From: Planctomycetales bacterium
GTDB taxonomy: Bacteria; Planctomycetota; Planctomycetia; Planctomycetales; Planctomycetaceae
Direction: 5' to 3'
Assembly (NCBI GenBank): GCA_020050375.1
Contig: JAGVKR010000708.1
Location: 1-14,599, forward strand
DNA length: 14,599 bases
A model generated the notes under the pieces. The model ran no database searches and was not told where the DNA came from. It saw only the letters and a list, made by a program, of their open reading frames with translations. The first letter of the stretch is position 1; every line of letters starts with the position of its first letter. The translations under genes and the position numbers were made by a program. Below are positions 1-7,253 of the stretch, piece after piece.

Positions 1-129
1 ATAGTAGTACATCGCCGGCCGACGCCCCTCGCGCAGCACCGGCGGCTCCCCCTCGGCAATGTACCAGTGCCGCGCCGGCTCGTCGAACGGCGTGTTGAGA
101 ATTGGTTCGGGAACTTCGTACTGGGTCAT
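1..129 (-). CDS. Type III restriction endonuclease subunit (Res-like), N-terminal fragment
   Basis: Only the first 43 codons are inside the window; the gene continues past the left edge. The visible N-terminus contains the run PILNTPFDEPARHW followed by EGRRPA. I recognise this as the typical start of BPTD_3080-type/type III Res helicase-nucleases, which normally run to roughly 900-1000 residues with DEAD-box helicase and nuclease domains, none of which is visible here. In that family Res uses ATP to communicate along DNA and cleaves when its Mod partner meets unmodified sites. The ATG overlaps the TGA of the DUF4276 gene as ATGA, with only a weak Shine-Dalgarno, which suggests translational coupling. 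Its position as fourth gene after mod supports the assignment. The call rests on a short stretch and on context. Confidence 0.7.
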   Translation of the reverse strand, partial: MTQYEVPEPILNTPFDEPARHWYIAEGEPPVLREGRRPAMYYY

Positions 130-731
130 GGTTCGCACCGTGCCCGGAGGGCCGCAATTGCACGGCGGAGACTCTCGCTGTTTTTCTGGGCCACAAGTGG
201 CCTCCAATATTCCCGAAGGAACTCCGTCAGGCGTCCCGTGTAGTTCTTACCAACAATTCCCGGAGTTCCCGGTTCCGGTGTCATTTCTTCTCGAATGTCA
301 CGGGACTTCGACTTCCGAGCCAGATTGACCAGTGTCTGTTTCGGATTGGACTCGACGTCAGGATTGTTGGGAACGACGTCCGCGCTCACGCGAAGATACT
401 TCGCCAGCGACTCCCGGTCGGCCAGCAACCAGCTCTCGAGCATTCGTTCCGCGATCCGCAGCACGTAGTCCACGTGCTGCGGGCCACGAAGGTGTTCGCC
501 GATCAGGCCGCTGGGGCATGGTTCCCTCTCCAGGTCGGCCAGCGCAAAGACTGGTCCGAGCTGTGAGGCGGCTTGATTGTATTTTCCGACGCTTTCCCAG
601 AAGCTCTCACGTCCGCGCTTGTTGACGATCGTGCAGTTCGCCCCCATGTATCCCAGCGTGCCGAGAAGTTTCTCGGTTGCTGGCACTTCGAGATTCCCCT
701 CGACAACAGCCAGGACGACGTTTCGGGTCAT
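126..731 (-). CDS. DUF4276 family protein (putative TOPRIM-like nuclease partner of the ATPase)
   Basis: 201 residues. The start VLAVVEGNLEVPATEKLL carries an EG-x-x-E element (Glu11), followed by a hydrophobic strand ending in ADLERE (Asp66, Glu68). This arrangement fits a TOPRIM-like acidic centre. The block RIAERMLESWLLADRESLAKYL (about 92-113) and the C-terminal NYTGRLTEFL...YWRP segment (163-178) match what I know of DUF4276. Its biochemical activity is not established to my knowledge; metal-dependent nucleolysis is inferred from the TOPRIM resemblance. The ATG overlaps the stop of the upstream ATPase gene (ATGA) and its own TGA overlaps the res start. There is no clear independent ribosome binding site, so it is probably coupled to the ATPase. 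Family confidence is good; function is uncertain. Confidence 0.75.
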   Translation of the reverse strand: MTRNVVLAVVEGNLEVPATEKLLGTLGYMGANCTIVNKRGRESFWESVGKYNQAASQLGPVFALADLEREPCPSGLIGEHLRGPQHVDYVLRIAERMLESWLLADRESLAKYLRVSADVVPNNPDVESNPKQTLVNLARKSKSRDIREEMTPEPGTPGIVGKNYTGRLTEFLREYWRPLVAQKNSESLRRAIAALRARCEP

Positions 732-1900
732 GGTGCCAGCGTGTCGAAGAGCTTCAATTGGTTCATTCGGGTTTGGGGTACAACCGCCTCGCTCGCCGGA
801 ATCCCGGAGTCCATCAATCGGCGGACGTCTCGTTGACGTGCCCCGAGCACAGCCTGTGACCCGTTCGGAGTGGTTTGGATGAGGACGATTTCGTCCGCCG
901 AAATCCCCTCGTCCGTCAGCAAATCCACGCTATGGGTTGAAAGCAGCACTTGCCGGCCGTTGCCGGCGCGTTGCGCCCGGTAGATGAACGGACCCAGCTT
1001 CGACACGATGGCCGAATGGAGCGAGAGCTCGGGTTCCTCCAGCAGAAGGGGCCCCCCCGATTCCTGAAGCGCCCAGAGCAGACCGATCAAACGGAGTGTG
1101 CCATCGGAGAATTGGGTCTCTAACTGGTACGCCCCTTGCGGCCGCCAATGCTGAAAGCGCGCCTGCAAGTGCGGTCGCCCCTGCGGATCCTCGATTTGCG
1201 ACAATTCCTGAAGCTGCGGGGTCACATGCTTTAGGACCTTCTCGATGCGCTGCAATCGAGCCCGCTTTGTTCGTGGCTGCGTCTCACGAATCCGCTGTAG
1301 GAGATCGCGACCGTACGGATCCTGACCGATCGTAAATGAAGGCGCCGCCTGCCCCTCGCGAATCAGGTGGGGAACGGCATGGAGGTAGCTGATACTACGA
1401 AAGAACTCGGCGAGCTCGCGGAATTCCTGATTCGCCGTCACCTGCTGCAATGCGGTCTGCGAGAGACGTTCCGGATCCCGCTGATCCTCTTTCGAGGGAC
1501 GGCTCAGTAGCTCAAAAGTCGTCCCGTTCGATCGGATTCGTTCCACTTTTTCCCACTGTACCAGAGGAACCTGCTCCTTCGGCCCCTTGTGCGTGAATCC
1601 CAGATCGTATTTCCAACCATCGCCGTCCGCTGTGCTCACGGTGACGCACACGCGCACCGTCGAGTTCTGCCTTGCATACAGCGACCGCATTTTTTTCATT
1701 GAACCGCGCACTTCGACGGCCCGTGCAATCCCACCCCCTTCGGTCACCAGGTCGTGCAGGAAGCGAAACGAATTCAGCAAGTTCGACTTACCGCTGGCAT
1801 TTGGTCCAACAATGAACATCCGCCGTGCCAGGTCGAGCTCCACTTTCGTGAAGTTCATCCAGTTTTCGAGTTCCAACCGCGAAATCCAAAGCGTGCTCAC
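728..1900 (-). CDS. AAA family ATPase (AAA_21/ABC-type, SMC/RecF-like fold)
   Basis: 390 residues. It has a Walker A GPNASGKS (32-39) immediately after an N-terminal strand LELENWMNF, an ABC-type signature region FSDGT (264-268), a Walker B LLLEEPE (285-291) with catalytic Glu, and an H-loop STHS (His323). This is the order of OLD/RloA/AAA_15/AAA_21 ATPases that dimerise on ATP. The insert between Walker A and the signature (about 50-260) is helical and charged, with no zinc hook or long coiled coil evident. The start is GTG, overlapping the mod stop as GTGA. A strong Shine-Dalgarno GGGAGGG five bases upstream supports it. The downstream DUF4276 gene overlaps by 4 nt. By analogy with ATPase plus nuclease pairs, it probably senses a trigger and controls the DUF4276 effector; that role is inference. 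Confidence 0.85.
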   Translation of the reverse strand: MSTLWISRLELENWMNFTKVELDLARRMFIVGPNASGKSNLLNSFRFLHDLVTEGGGIARAVEVRGSMKKMRSLYARQNSTVRVCVTVSTADGDGWKYDLGFTHKGPKEQVPLVQWEKVERIRSNGTTFELLSRPSKEDQRDPERLSQTALQQVTANQEFRELAEFFRSISYLHAVPHLIREGQAAPSFTIGQDPYGRDLLQRIRETQPRTKRARLQRIEKVLKHVTPQLQELSQIEDPQGRPHLQARFQHWRPQGAYQLETQFSDGTLRLIGLLWALQESGGPLLLEEPELSLHSAIVSKLGPFIYRAQRAGNGRQVLLSTHSVDLLTDEGISADEIVLIQTTPNGSQAVLGARQRDVRRLMDSGIPASEAVVPQTRMNQLKLFDTLAP

Positions 1901-4740
1901 TTTGTCCCTCCCTTGACCGTCTTCACCACCAGCAACTCATTCCCCCGGTCATCGATCACCTTCACCGCGATCTGGCCATGCTCGCCCGGCTCGAAGGGAG
2001 CGCTCGTCGTGCCCGACAGGTGGTCCCAGACACTCTCTTCGTGCGTTCCCTTCAAGGCCTTCTTCAGGTTATCCCACGCACTCGTGCGGGGGAAGAACGC
2101 TTGCGAAACGTGGAAGCAGAGGCCGTTGTAATCGGTGTCGAGCAGCCAGGCGGGGACGTCGTTCCCCGCGCGGTGCTCCGGTTCCATTGTCACCGGGTCG
2201 AATACGTCCAGCCCCAATAGTTCGACTTGCAACTGGCCTCCCTTTTGTTTATGCAGCTTGACGTCCGGCAGGCCGCAGACGCTGAAAATCTGGCTCGACC
2301 GCATGTTTTTCAGCAAATCCCCCATCAGCAGGTCGGGGGTCGCCTGTACGTACGTCGCCGGAATCCCCATCACCCCCTCGCACTTCTCGACCAACTCGCG
2401 CGCATTCGGCTGGATCAGGAAGCCGACCACATACAAATGCGTGTAGTTCTTGGCGTGCGCTTCCTTCGCCGCTTCGTAAACGAGCTTCTCGCTCACCGCC
2501 CCGTTCTCGGGACCGAAGACGAAGGCGACCGGCGCCCCGTCCCTCCCCCCGTTCACGGGGGGATCGAGGGGGGGCGTCTGAGCTTCACCCCGCCCACCCC
2601 GGCCCCCACCCCGGCCCTCCCCGCGAACGGGGAGGGAGACGATCGCCTCCGCCGAGAGCGACAACGACCGCGCCGGCGGACGAACCTGCTTGAGCGTCAC
2701 CGTCTTGCCACCCCCGACCTGCAACACCGGACTGCGGCGGAGCGCTTCGAGCATGCGTTCGACGAATCGGCTGGGGGTGTCGTCGAGTGTTGTGGGTGGG
2801 AGTGTATTGGTCGCCAGTGCTTCAGGGGGCTCACGCCCCCCGCTCGCCCTTTCTCCCTGTCTCCCCGTCTCTCCGTCTCCCCCTCTCTCTTCCTCCCAAT
2901 CCATCGCCGCCGGAATCGTCGCCTCGACCCAGAACGGACCGGTGACGCGCGTCACGCCCGCGTCCGCTTCCGGCCGGTCGACAAGCACCTCCTCCTGCGG
3001 CGGTTCATTGTTCGCGATCGACTTGAGCGTCACGTGCGGGACGATCCCGCCGACTTCGTCCCCTTTCTTGTTCTGCTTCGGTTTATAGTCAAAGCCTCCC
3101 GCCGGACCGCGCTCGGTATCCTTGAGCGTATACCAAGGGAATGTCGCCGTGAGGAGCCGCTGACGGGCTAAGGCGAGAGGGACACGGCTGGTATCGGCAC
3201 TGATCCAACGTCGACCCCAGTGTTCGGCTACATAAGCCGTCGTCCCACTCCCGCACGTCGGATCGAGAACGAGGTCGCCCGGTGCCGTTGTCATCAGCAA
3301 GCAACGCTCAACGACTTTGCGATTGGTTTGCACGACGTACGAATGCTCATCAGTAAAGCTTCCAGTGCCAGTATCAAGCCAAACATTGTCGAGTTCCGTT
3401 GTTGGGTTATCTTCAGCGAGCAAAATCGAACGGATCGAATTCCCAGACTTGCGAATTCGATTCATTCGCACAAGCCGATCCATCTCATTGCCGGGCGTTG
3501 GGTCGTAACTCCAATGGCGATTCGGCGGTGGATTAAATGCTTCGTTCTCAAAGATATACGGGCCGCTGCGATCCCTTTGAAAACCCTGCGAGGTGAGTGG
3601 TCCGAGTGCACAAATTCGCCAACCTTTCGGTAGTGGCTCGCGCCCGTCGATCTCGCTTTGGCTTTGTCGCCGAACTGTCGACAAATCAGGAGATGCAATT
3701 AGCGTATACTGCTTTGCCCCTCTTTCGCCCGAGTCCTTTAGTTGGAGTACTGGTTTCATGCGCTGACGTGTATGATCCTTCGCGTAGCAGATCAAGAAGT
3801 CGACAATTGCAGGAATCTTGTCAGTGCTCTGGGAGCTGGTCTTGTAGAAGCTAATCACGCCGGAAAAATTCTCCGCCCCAAATACCTCATCCATTACCTC
3901 CCGCACGTGGTGCAGGTTTTCGTCGCTGATCTGCACAAAAATGCTGCCGCTCGGCGTGAGCAAATCGCGGCAGACGAGAAGCCGGTCGCGTAAGTACGTC
4001 AGATACGAGTGCAACCCCAGTTCCCATGTGTCGCGGTAGGCCTGGACCATCTCCGGCTCGCGCGTCATGTCGTCGTCATCGCCGTGCTTGACGTCACGCT
4101 TCCGCACGAACGGCTGGAAGTTGCTGCCGAACTTCACGCCGTACGGCGGATCCATGTAGATCATCTGCACCTGCCCCCCCAGCGACTCGTAGCGCAGGAG
4201 CGAGTTCATCACGACCAGCGAATCCCCGAGAATCAGCCGGTTGACCCACTGGTCCTGGTGCTCGTAGGCGCGGAGCACCTGATCGGTAATCGAATGCTGC
4301 GGGTCGGCGAAGAGCGCCAACTGCGTCTCGTGGCTGCGACGATGCCCGGAGAGCGTCTCCAGAATGGCCTGCGTCGACAGCCGCTCGTGGACAAACAGCG
4401 GCAGCGTCGGCACGTCGAACGACAACCGCTCGGCCTTGCCCGCCCAGTTGAGAAATGGTTTCGAGAGGGCCTTCAGCCGGGCGGCCGCTTCCTTGGCCTG
4501 CTCCAGCGATTCGGCGTCGAGAATCTGCTTGACAAGCGCTTCCCCTTGCTCCCGAGCGCTGTTTTGGCCATCCCAATCGAGTGCCGGCGAGAGCGAGCTG
4601 TCGTACCGATAGCGCTGTGGCGGCTTCTTCTTGCGAAACTGCGCCTGCGTCCCGACCTCGGGGCGCATCAGTGCCTTCGGCTCGGAGTGCTGATAGCTCT
4701 CGGCTTGCGGGGGTGCGGCCGGCTTCTTGCGCTTGCCCAT
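1897..4740 (-). CDS. Type III R-M system methyltransferase (Mod), beta-class N6-adenine
   Basis: 947 residues. Catalytic motif IV DPPY is at 197-200 and precedes the SAM-binding motif I DPTCGSGTT at 493-501. This order is that of beta-class adenine methyltransferases such as type III Mod. The 290 residues between them should include the target recognition domain. Residues 1-170 form a basic, charged N-terminal extension, and a long C-terminal region (about 540-947) follows the catalytic core, ending in a conserved-looking segment (740-947). Two low-complexity insertions, about 616-640 (rich in G, E, R) and 702-736 (GRGGGRGGRGEA and PPLDPPVNGG), are encoded by palindromic intergenic-type repeats that keep the frame. 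Base composition falls to about half G+C by hand count between roughly 3300 and 3900, against 60% or more around it. The ATG follows AGGAGG. It is the first gene of the R-M operon. Confidence 0.92.
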   Translation of the reverse strand: MGKRKKPAAPPQAESYQHSEPKALMRPEVGTQAQFRKKKPPQRYRYDSSLSPALDWDGQNSAREQGEALVKQILDAESLEQAKEAAARLKALSKPFLNWAGKAERLSFDVPTLPLFVHERLSTQAILETLSGHRRSHETQLALFADPQHSITDQVLRAYEHQDQWVNRLILGDSLVVMNSLLRYESLGGQVQMIYMDPPYGVKFGSNFQPFVRKRDVKHGDDDDMTREPEMVQAYRDTWELGLHSYLTYLRDRLLVCRDLLTPSGSIFVQISDENLHHVREVMDEVFGAENFSGVISFYKTSSQSTDKIPAIVDFLICYAKDHTRQRMKPVLQLKDSGERGAKQYTLIASPDLSTVRRQSQSEIDGREPLPKGWRICALGPLTSQGFQRDRSGPYIFENEAFNPPPNRHWSYDPTPGNEMDRLVRMNRIRKSGNSIRSILLAEDNPTTELDNVWLDTGTGSFTDEHSYVVQTNRKVVERCLLMTTAPGDLVLDPTCGSGTTAYVAEHWGRRWISADTSRVPLALARQRLLTATFPWYTLKDTERGPAGGFDYKPKQNKKGDEVGGIVPHVTLKSIANNEPPQEEVLVDRPEADAGVTRVTGPFWVEATIPAAMDWEEERGGDGETGRQGERASGGREPPEALATNTLPPTTLDDTPSRFVERMLEALRRSPVLQVGGGKTVTLKQVRPPARSLSLSAEAIVSLPVRGEGRGGGRGGRGEAQTPPLDPPVNGGRDGAPVAFVFGPENGAVSEKLVYEAAKEAHAKNYTHLYVVGFLIQPNARELVEKCEGVMGIPATYVQATPDLLMGDLLKNMRSSQIFSVCGLPDVKLHKQKGGQLQVELLGLDVFDPVTMEPEHRAGNDVPAWLLDTDYNGLCFHVSQAFFPRTSAWDNLKKALKGTHEESVWDHLSGTTSAPFEPGEHGQIAVKVIDDRGNELLVVKTVKGGTK
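1906..1912 (-). promoter_or_regulatory. Ribosome binding site for the GTG-initiated ATPase gene
   Basis: GGGAGGG on the minus strand, five bases before the GTG at 1900, inside the end of mod. It supports initiation at this GTG and independent loading of ribosomes in addition to termination-reinitiation. Confidence 0.6.
2541..2571. repeat. Palindromic GC-rich repeat inside mod (copy A)
   Basis: TCCCCCCG (2544-2551), loop TTCA, CGGGGGGA (2556-2563) make a perfect 8-bp hairpin, followed by ATCGAGGGGGG. It resembles intergenic REP-like palindromes, but it lies in frame in mod, where it encodes part of PPLDPPVNGG (about residues 723-732). Confidence 0.6.
2615..2636. repeat. Palindromic GC-rich repeat inside mod (copy B)
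   Basis: CCCTCCCCG (2615-2623), loop CGAA, CGGGGAGGG (2628-2636): a perfect 9-bp stem. It has the same design as the palindrome about 60 bp away (pyrimidine arm, four-base loop, purine arm), with a C-rich linker between them. It encodes LPVRGEGR in mod. Confidence 0.65.
2825..2895. repeat. Hairpin plus polypurine/polypyrimidine tract inside mod
   Basis: GGGGGC (2825-2830), loop TCAC, GCCCCC (2835-2840) form a 6-bp hairpin. A nearly pure pyrimidine tract follows to about 2895, built from variants of CTCCCTGT, CTCCCCGT and CTCTCCGT (period about 7-8). On the coding strand it gives the low-complexity residues about 616-640 of Mod. It looks like non-coding repeat DNA captured in frame. Confidence 0.55.
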
Positions 4741-5016: not shown

Positions 5017-6144
5017 TCACTTCGGCATATCACCTTCGCCGGCAGGCGGCCGCTTCTTCTTCGTCGGTTTCTTCCCCGCCTCCTTCTTCGGCAAGGCGCG
5101 GCGCTTGTTCGTCAGGCGATTGACCTCGTCCACCACCGTGTCGAAATCGCTCGTCGGCTGCGTCGCTTCCAGGCGCCGGCGTTCCGCATCAAACCGCGCG
5201 AATTCGCCATGGGCGTGCTGCTCCGCCGCCTTGTGAGCGATCCGGCCGGCGTCGTGCAGCACCTCGCGCTCCGACAGTGTCAGAAAATCGTCGAGCTTAC
5301 CGATCCAGTCGGACATGTGCATTGGCCGGCGATTTCCTGCCTGCAGCTCGGCGAAGTCGAGATACGCCGAGACGATCAAATTGAGCGTCTTGAGCTCCTC
5401 TTCGTGCAGATAATTCTTGGCGATCGCGACGTCCGCTTTCCGAATCGGGCCGACCGGAGCGTTCTTCCAACTCGTCAGCCCCATCTGCGGTTTCGTCGCG
5501 TCGGCTCGCAGCCGGACGACCTCGGCGGCGGTGTGCCCGTGCGCCGCCCAGTGCATCTTGTTCTGAACCGTTTGAAAGAACGTCTTCGTCAGTTCGACAT
5601 CGGGGTCGTAATCGATGCTCGTCGCGTAGATGTCGGTGATCTTCTGGTAGAACATCCGCTCGCTCGATCGGATGTCGCGAATCCGAGCGAGCAGCTCGTC
5701 GAAGTAATCGTCTCCCAGAGTGCGGCCAGCCTTGATTCGTTCGTCGTCGAGCGTAAAGCCCTTGGCCAGCAGCTCGGCGAGGCGAGCCGTCGCCCATTGG
5801 CGGAATTGCGTCCCGCGCGGCGAGCGTACGCGGTAGCCGACAGCGATGATGGCGTCGAGGTTGTAGTGGTCGACGAGGCGAGACACCTGTCGGCTTCCCT
5901 CGGTTTGAACTATTAAGTATTGCTTAACAGTTGCCTCGGCCTGCAGTTCGCCCTCTTCGTAAATAGCTTTCAGATGCTGACTTACGTTCGGGACTGTGAC
6001 CTGGAACAGGTCCGCGATCAGCCGCTGCGAAAGCCAGACGGTCTGCCCGTCGAGCCGCACCTGCAACTGCGTCGAGCCGTCGCGATAGATCAGCATCTGC
6101 CCGTCGGGGGGCCATTCACCGGGCGATGAAAGGGGGGCGGTCAT
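5017..6144 (-). CDS. RhuM family protein
   Basis: 375 residues from the chosen ATG. The N-terminal part DGQTVWLSQRLIADLF...VSQHLKAIYEEGEL (about 32-67) looks like a DNA-binding helix-turn-helix segment. It is followed by the hallmark YNLDAIIAVGYRVRS (94-108) and RGTQFRQWA (110-118), which identify the RhuM family (first named from a Salmonella pathogenicity island). A lysine-rich tail (about residues 350-366) ends the protein. The molecular role of RhuM proteins is not settled; I recall them often beside restriction-modification and toxin-antitoxin genes. An in-frame upstream ATG at 6228 would add 28 residues inside the PIN gene without family resemblance. I chose 6144 because it overlaps the PIN stop as ATGA and lies at the normal distance before the conserved region. 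Confidence 0.9.
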   Translation of the reverse strand: MTAPLSSPGEWPPDGQMLIYRDGSTQLQVRLDGQTVWLSQRLIADLFQVTVPNVSQHLKAIYEEGELQAEATVKQYLIVQTEGSRQVSRLVDHYNLDAIIAVGYRVRSPRGTQFRQWATARLAELLAKGFTLDDERIKAGRTLGDDYFDELLARIRDIRSSERMFYQKITDIYATSIDYDPDVELTKTFFQTVQNKMHWAAHGHTAAEVVRLRADATKPQMGLTSWKNAPVGPIRKADVAIAKNYLHEEELKTLNLIVSAYLDFAELQAGNRRPMHMSDWIGKLDDFLTLSEREVLHDAGRIAHKAAEQHAHGEFARFDAERRRLEATQPTSDFDTVVDEVNRLTNKRRALPKKEAGKKPTKKKRPPAGEGDMPK

Positions 6145-6359
6145 GGCCTCTCCGTCAGGGAAACGCCCCAGCGCTTCAGCGTCTCGTCGTCCAGGGCAAA
6201 CTTGGGCCGCCGCAGAACCTCGGTGCACTCGGCCAGGATTTCAGGCGTGACGAGCCATCGCAGGTCATCCCGACCAGCCACGTAAAGCACGAAGCGTTCC
6301 GGCAGTTGATCGCGCAGCGCGGCCGACAGCAGGACGTTGGTGTCGATCAGTATGTTCAT
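6141..6359 (-). CDS. PIN-domain toxin (VapC-like), truncated after about half the domain
   Basis: 72 residues beginning MNILIDTNVLLSAAL, with the PIN acidic residue Asp6 in the DTN motif, then TPEILAECTEVLRRPKF (Glu44 as second acidic residue). Full PIN proteins of this type are about 130-140 residues and carry further acidic residues in the C-terminal half (the DPKD and TGD regions). Here the reading ends in LTERP and a stop at the RhuM start. I read the following bases in the PIN frame and found a short proline-rich run to another stop, with no PIN C-terminus, so this is truncation rather than a simple frameshift. Ribonuclease activity is therefore doubtful. The ATG overlaps the antitoxin stop (ATGA). 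Confidence 0.75.
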   Translation of the reverse strand: MNILIDTNVLLSAALRDQLPERFVLYVAGRDDLRWLVTPEILAECTEVLRRPKFALDDETLKRWGVSLTERP

Positions 6360-6595
6360 TGACCGGCCCGGTAGCGGTCGACTTCGTCACCGATCTCCTC
6401 ATCGGTGATGTTTTGCATGCCGGGGCGGCCGCGCACCTCGGCACTCACCTGCCGCCAGGCGGTGATGAATTCCTCGGCCGGGCGGCGTTTGGGGCTGATG
6501 CTGACCTCGACCTCGGTCCCTGGCGCGAACGGCACGCCGGCCAAATGGACTTGACCCTCACGTTCCACGGTCGCGGATGTTTCGTAGCTTTGCAT
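6356..6595 (-). CDS. AbrB/MazE-like antitoxin of the PIN toxin
   Basis: 79 residues. The N-terminal part (about 5-35, ATVEREGQVHLAGVPFAPGTEVEV) has the alternating hydrophobic pattern and G/P turns of a swapped-hairpin AbrB-type DNA-binding domain. The C-terminal part (about 40-79) is helical and acidic, as expected for the toxin-binding tail, and contains GRPGMQNITDEEI. Such antitoxins repress their own operon and neutralise the PIN ribonuclease. The gene precedes the truncated PIN gene with an ATGA overlap. Only a weak GGGGA stretch lies before the ATG. Since the toxin is shortened, this antitoxin may survive as an orphan regulator. Confidence 0.72.
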   Translation of the reverse strand: MQSYETSATVEREGQVHLAGVPFAPGTEVEVSISPKRRPAEEFITAWRQVSAEVRGRPGMQNITDEEIGDEVDRYRAGQ

Positions 6596-7118: not shown

Positions 7119-7126
7119 GGCGGAAG

Positions 7127-7245
7127 TTGGATGTTGGATGTTGGATGTTGGATGTTCGATGTTCGATGTTGGATGTTGGATGTTGGATGTTGGATGTTGG
7201 ATGTTGGATGTTGGAAGTTGGATGTTGGAAGTTGGATGTTGGATG
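7127..7245. repeat. Heptanucleotide minisatellite (TTGGATG), 17 tandem units
   Basis: There are 17 uninterrupted 7-nt units: 13 exact TTGGATG, two TTCGATG (7155-7168), and two TTGGAAG (7211-7217, 7225-7231). The 21-nt superperiod gives the same repeating heptapeptide (WMLDVGC cyclically) in all three plus frames and contains no stop, so it creates long false ORFs. No spacers are present, so it is not a CRISPR array. Confidence 0.95.
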
Positions 7246-7253
7246 TTCGCGTC

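Follow-up and report, generated by a model that had tools for sequence, protein, structure and literature searches.

PARIS, the AriA-AriB pair that PMC10568477 puts forward as Class 4 OLD, is described as a system in which an AriA hexamer holds AriB inactive and frees it on sensing phage proteins such as Ocr, whereupon the freed AriB cuts tRNAs (PMC12409363). TOPRIM-linked OLD-ABC modules inside BREX operons have been called backup suicidal effectors (PMC12839542), and both DarTG2 and a pair made of an AAA-like ATPase and a putative RNA-binding protein have been described as embedded between hsdS and hsdR (PMC12255303). The HEC systems, short for "Hma-embedded candidate" (PMC10855318, PMC12988326), are traced by PMC12988326 and PMC12255303 to a 2024 preprint (Payne et al.) on defences embedded within prokaryotic immune systems, and several of them, HEC-06 included, are stated to have antiviral activity (PMC12988326). 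Here we analyze a 14,599-nt stretch of DNA from a Planctomycetales bacterium (GCA_020050375.1, contig JAGVKR010000708.1; hereafter the window), in which genes for an ATPase and a small DUF4276-like protein lie between the methyltransferase gene (mod) and the restriction gene (res) of a type III-like restriction-modification (R-M) operon. We consider it fairly likely that the two genes form a defence module that works in the OLD/PARIS manner and that the mod-res gap carries as exchangeable cargo, a reading drawn from the operon layout, the HEC-01 matches, a predicted TOPRIM-like fold, conserved residues, repeated changes of state and the varied cargo of the slot.

Family assignment and predicted folds of the pair

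The genes follow each other on the minus strand in the order mod, ATPase, small protein, res, and neighbouring frames overlap by 4 nt at all three junctions, just as the first-pass annotation had read them from the letters (Table 1). These overlaps suggest that the operon genes share one mRNA and that their translation is coupled.

Screening against PADLOC placed the ATPase in HEC-01A (PDLC04180, 4e-134, residues 6-383) and the adjacent small protein in HEC-01B (PDLC04194, 2.4e-54, residues 1-197). Judged by these profile matches, the pair belongs to an already catalogued family, PADLOC HEC-01, which it also resembles in being embedded in another defence system, although it sits here in a type III-like R-M operon and not in Hma. 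All 10 PADLOC families matched by the small protein are HEC-01B, and no AriB model matched it at E<=0.01. Membership in PARIS was therefore rejected; the ATPase also scores much better with HEC-01A (4e-134) than with AriA (3.4e-26), even though the separate ATPase and TOPRIM genes are more PARIS-like than Gabija-like. OLD Classes 1-3 and Gabija GajA share the ATPase and TOPRIM logic and the Glu, DxD/E, Glu, Lys order, but they were likewise rejected, since the two functions reside here in two open reading frames (ORFs; 390 and 201 aa) rather than in one polypeptide. The gene next to the pair is res, not the UvrD-like helicase GajB of Gabija.

Among embedded modules, the BREX and BREX-related backup effectors are alike in joining TOPRIM-linked OLD-ABC proteins to modification-based defence operons and in the function proposed for them; the available excerpt of PMC12839542 describes them for BREX/BREX-related operons, however, and not for type III mod-res operons. 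The hsdS-hsdR insertions (PMC12255303) are two-gene modules within an R-M operon gap as well, but the operon is type I and described with an RptR repressor, and DarTG2, a toxin-antitoxin effector, is unrelated. Less familiar in the present case are the frequent occupation of this mod-res gap and its use by both split and, probably, fused ATPase-TOPRIM modules; the slot itself may already be described in the Payne preprint.

The ATPase matched Pfam AAA_21 (7.4e-28) and carries GPNASGKS from residue 32 (including Lys38), SDGTLR from 265, LLLEEPE from 285 and STHS from 321, which we take to be the Walker A, signature, Walker B and H-loop motifs. Across 61 aligned pairs, window included, Lys38 is kept in 58 and gapped in the other three, while S265-R270, E288-E291 and His323 are kept in all 61. 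The motifs are thus present and conserved, in agreement with the first-pass description of an ABC-type ATPase with a complete motif set. The best fold matches of its AlphaFold2 (AF2) model (predicted local distance difference test, pLDDT, 88.1) include the heads of Smc, PtuA and Rad50; AriA was not among the best 50 fold matches listed, which does not exclude AriA. A tblastn comparison of the ATPase with plasmid records gave no match.

The small protein matched no Pfam family at E<=0.1, yet PF14103 (DUF4276) is carried by 7 of its 120 listed homologues (314 found). Support for the DUF4276 name proposed at first pass thus comes from homologues, with no direct match. A full-text search of the literature library did not find the term DUF4276, a PDB sequence search with the small-protein profile returned only three GTPase matches (E 1.1), and tblastn against phage records gave no match. 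Its model, a confident one (pLDDT 96), has the TOPRIM domains of OLD and PARIS as nearest folds, at modest scores, with the Bp OLD TOPRIM domain as the best match and a PARIS chain within 1 Z unit. The predicted structure is therefore like the OLD/AriB TOPRIM in overall fold, and these matches bear out the suggested pairing of the ATPase with a TOPRIM-like partner.

The acidic residues of the small protein follow the TOPRIM order and, together with the predicted fold, agree with the acidic centre anticipated by the first reading. Glu11 is found in 60 of the 61 alignment rows, Asp66 in 61 and Asp or Glu at position 68 in 60, corresponding to a TOPRIM Glu followed by DxD, here DxD or DxE. The stable set of the family comprises Glu11, Asp66, Asp/Glu68, Glu99 and Lys131, although the conservation of E99, W101 and D105 is partly built in because loci L032-L107 were fetched by the pattern [MEA][LI]ESW[LF]LAD. 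The specific EG-x-x-E and D-x-E layout is present in the window as EGNLE (Glu11-Glu15) and D-L-E (Asp66-Glu68), but its second glutamate varies across the wider family, where position 15 is D in 25 of the 61 rows, S in 16, E in 14, T in 4 and G in 1. By predicted fold, a DUF4276-type protein can thus be placed in the TOPRIM effector class, with named residues open to experiment.

The pair and the mod-res gap in other genomes

Pair loci were collected from a scan of named genomes (76 loci) and from 197 kin genomes, 28 of which had a HEC-01B match at E<=1e-3 and contributed seven further strong relatives at E<1e-40; gene calls throughout the survey are mechanical ORFs. Of 65 HEC-01B-like ORFs above 100 bits, 61 have an ATPase ORF no more than 300 nt away (exceptions L074, L075, L083 and L177), and 26 of these 61 pairs show the exact 4-nt overlap. 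At 8 of the 60 listed loci, spread over several phyla, mod and/or res adjoin the pair, so the gene order on which the first-pass annotation dwelt recurs outside this genome. The order mod-pair-res was seen at L032 (Verrucomicrobia), L035 (Betaproteobacteria), L059, L065 and L079, and L038 (WOR-3), where mod precedes the pair and the contig ends after it, was grouped with them; L049 and L067 have the order res-pair-mod.

With the window added, there are 9 embedded rows and 37 that are not embedded, while another 15 are too close to contig ends to decide; this leaves 37 of 46 decidable rows without such a mod or res beside the pair, "not embedded" meaning no match to the mod/res queries used. 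Counted among the 37 are L046, where a type I restriction endonuclease follows the pair, and L061, where a type I methyltransferase precedes it. L081, with a 28% methylase match, was undecidable, and L083 (small protein at a contig edge, then res) and L096 (a distant copy from an archaeon) are possible embedded cases left out of the count. A PADLOC screen at E<=1e-15 gave no match for 7 of 10 large genes that flank other pair loci. At L032 (4679-12210) the neighbouring mod is broken into two ORFs and the res lacks a central stretch relative to L035, while the pair itself reads through.

On a tree of the pair, at least 8 changes of embedded state are needed. On the Mod tree, the HEC-01 label (8 of 59 rows) requires 7 changes, 6 of them forced by well-supported branches; shuffled labels gave a mean of 7.7 changes and were as low in 147 of 500 trials, so the label is no more clustered than chance placement. 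Both trees were made by a quick method, and the Mod tree omits L032, whose split Mod fell below the bit cut-off, and mixes loci chosen by HEC-01 with loci chosen by res. The pair has changed place repeatedly, gains and losses being indistinguishable.

The gap itself was surveyed from the res side in 392 genomes of the phylum, 57 of which, the window's own included, carry the res family at E<=1e-100. Sixty-four places were fetched, 51 with mod and res on the same strand and 13 incomplete (contig C145 of the window's own genome among the latter); the 51 are not independent, as several genomes contribute two and some Mods are near-identical. Spacing between mod and res is below 200 bp, or adjacent, in 12 places (L140 and L148 owe long negative gaps to over-extended starts), 372 bp in one and at least 400 bp in 38, that is, a gap of 372 bp or more in 39 of 51. 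Within 34 gaps we counted 54 same-strand ORFs of at least 140 aa. Pfam was applied to 30 of them, of which 25 matched at E<=1e-3 and 22 above the curated cut-off, with families including Schlafen AlbA_2, GmrSD, Bro-N, KilA-N, RhuM, DUF3800, HNH, an AAA and subtilase pair, N6_Mtase/Eco57I and AAA_16. By profile, a HEC-01B-like ORF is in none of the 51 gaps, leaving the window as the sole case observed in the phylum sample. The pair is best read as a plug-in module of a known kind, in a slot where related operons place a wide variety of genes, and we suggest that the gap in this R-M family could yield new defence genes.

The clade holding the window's Mod (11 rows, support 100) brings these states together. 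HEC-01 occupies the slot in the window, L035 and L038; L154 joins mod and res directly by a 4-nt overlap, leaving the slot empty; L159 holds a 178-aa PDC-S05-type ORF, L149 and L155 a 143-aa ORF and L153 a short ORF. In L150 (3391-5040), L151 (3698-5335) and L160 (10392-12047) the slot is filled by a single ATPase of about 550 aa that overlaps the mod stop by 4 nt. The C-termini of these three proteins read LYVEDFTD (or similar), VDGDA and EIESYL, which is the TOPRIM order, and their E, DxD and ESW/ESY motifs are in register with the window protein. Comparison with the DUF4276-like alignment gave a weak match (probability 13, E 0.0022 for one comparison). The profile match and the motif register are suggestive of a TOPRIM-like part in L150, L151 and L160, and split and fused ATPase-TOPRIM modules probably share this slot. 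A single Mod clade shows the slot empty, filled by one gene and filled by the two-gene pair, which makes clean comparisons possible. More tentatively, the mod-res gap of this type III-like R-M family may serve defence modules as a general dock, where one replaces another and start/stop overlaps are often kept; split and fused ATPase-TOPRIM modules would then have docked independently within one Mod clade, and this, if true, would suggest that a TOPRIM fail-safe linked to restriction is under selection.

Proposed working and its alternatives

The pair is recurrent and probably a functional, if putative, defence module, most likely an independent defence cargo of an ATPase sensor and a TOPRIM effector and not a subunit of Res. 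Following the logic of PARIS, the pair would be expressed together with the R-M genes, and an ATPase oligomer would hold or gate the TOPRIM protein in a putative complex until a cue from the phage sets it free or activates it. Its TOPRIM centre (Glu11, Asp66, Asp/Glu68, Glu99, Lys131) would then cut nucleic acid, either host tRNA or DNA, and this cleavage would stop the infection. The overlaps at all junctions could instead mark the two proteins as accessory subunits or regulators that modulate Mod-Res activity, and a role as regulator of Res was indeed floated at first pass. This is very unlikely and was rejected, for 37 of 46 decidable rows have the pair without such R-M genes and close Mod relatives do without it, L154 joining mod and res directly and L149, L150, L151, L153, L155, L159 and L160 placing other ORFs in the gap; the res-pair-mod order at L049 and L067 and the type I neighbours at L046 and L061 count against it too. 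Still less credible is the idea that the pair is a functionless passenger, catalytically dead or decaying. The lack of conservation at position 15 is the only sign of this, and against it stand the open, overlapping frames and the ATP-site and acidic residues that are kept across phyla.

Two variants of the independent module concern its target and its trigger. The TOPRIM protein may act on DNA in the manner of OLD or Gabija, with nicks or degradation that may occur at ends left by Res, and not by way of tRNA. The best fold match is to Bp OLD, which cleaves DNA (PMC6755086), and the ATPase model resembles the Rad50, SMC and PtuA heads; however, the separate genes recall PARIS more than Gabija, and since a PARIS chain scores within 1 Z unit of Bp OLD and AriB is a tRNase, fold cannot decide between tRNA and DNA, and we regard a DNA target as possible but on the unlikely side. 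The other variant holds that the ATPase senses phage inhibitors of R-M, as AriA senses Ocr, so that the location is functional beyond shared transcription. AriA recognizes Ocr (PMC12409363), an inhibitor of host restriction (PMC12839542), the BREX backup effectors offer a parallel (PMC12839542), ATPase cargo with TOPRIM-like motifs (the TOPRIM part being weak) occupies the same slot at L150, L151 and L160, and HEC-01 stands beside type I genes at L046 and L061. The same 37 rows, L046 and L061 among them, lack such a mod or res, though, and the slot takes cargo of many unrelated kinds, so an anti-restriction trigger seems somewhat doubtful. The broader idea of a back-up effector, raised in the first-pass annotation and already published for BREX, is plausible by analogy.

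Host operon and neighbouring features

Mod carries DPPYG (nt 4138-4152) and DPTCGSG (nt 3244-3264) and, by Pfam and PADLOC, qualifies as the methyltransferase of a type III R-M system. The res frame stops after 43 aa because the window is the entire contig (C243) of an incomplete genome (assembly 66.6% complete). This stub matches NF046055 (BPTD_3080-family restriction endonuclease) at 29.6 bits, against a whole-protein cut-off of 800. The sole match to the res family at E<=1e-100 in the same genome starts near the beginning of contig C145, covers profile positions 66-966, exceeds the NF046055 cut-off and carries ResIII (5.4e-07); it is probably the remainder of the window's res. Stub and remainder together would supply the ResIII-type Res of a type III system, and in three Res proteins searched against Pfam at E<=0.01, ResIII was the only domain.

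Table 1. Features of the mod-res operon in the window.
Feature	Position	Strand	Description	Basis
mod	1897..4740	-	Type III-like DNA methyltransferase, 947 aa	N6_N4_Mtase 2.5e-28; PADLOC MTase_III PDLC03632 3.1e-140; motifs
ATPase (HEC-01A)	728..1900	-	ABC/SMC-head-like, 390 aa, GTG start	PADLOC, Pfam, AF2 model
DUF4276-like protein (HEC-01B)	126..731	-	Presumed nuclease effector of 201 aa, TOPRIM-like in its predicted fold	
res N-terminus	1..129	-	43 aa, truncated by contig end	NF046055 restr_BPTD_3080 1.7e-07
mod stop / ATPase start	1897..1900	-	GTGA overlap	Sequence
ATPase stop / HEC-01B start	728..731	-	ATGA overlap	Sequence
HEC-01B stop / res start	126..129	-	ATGA overlap	Sequence

Within the mod frame, 2780-2905 is a dispersed repeat with 48 matches listed in the same genome, self included, and the Mod stretches 2788-2826 and 2857-2886 have no counterpart in at least 7 of the 8 related Mods compared. 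Two other Mods are long: that of L154 (3575-7417) has 1280 aa, with DUF559 (1.7e-31) and a sub-threshold Intein_splicing match in its second half, and the L153 Mod ORF is comparable at 1300 aa.

Upstream of mod, 5017-6595 holds a RhuM/PDC-S05 gene by Pfam and PADLOC; a RhuM-type ORF also sits in the mod-res slot of L121. A 72-aa PIN-like ORF (6141-6359) shares 4 nt with the gene that likely starts at the RhuM ATG at 6144; the 79-aa ORF that precedes it has no Pfam match and may encode an antitoxin. Finally, 7122-7247 consists of 18 tandem copies of the 7-bp unit GGATGTT, and the longer stretch around it has 52 genome matches listed, self included.
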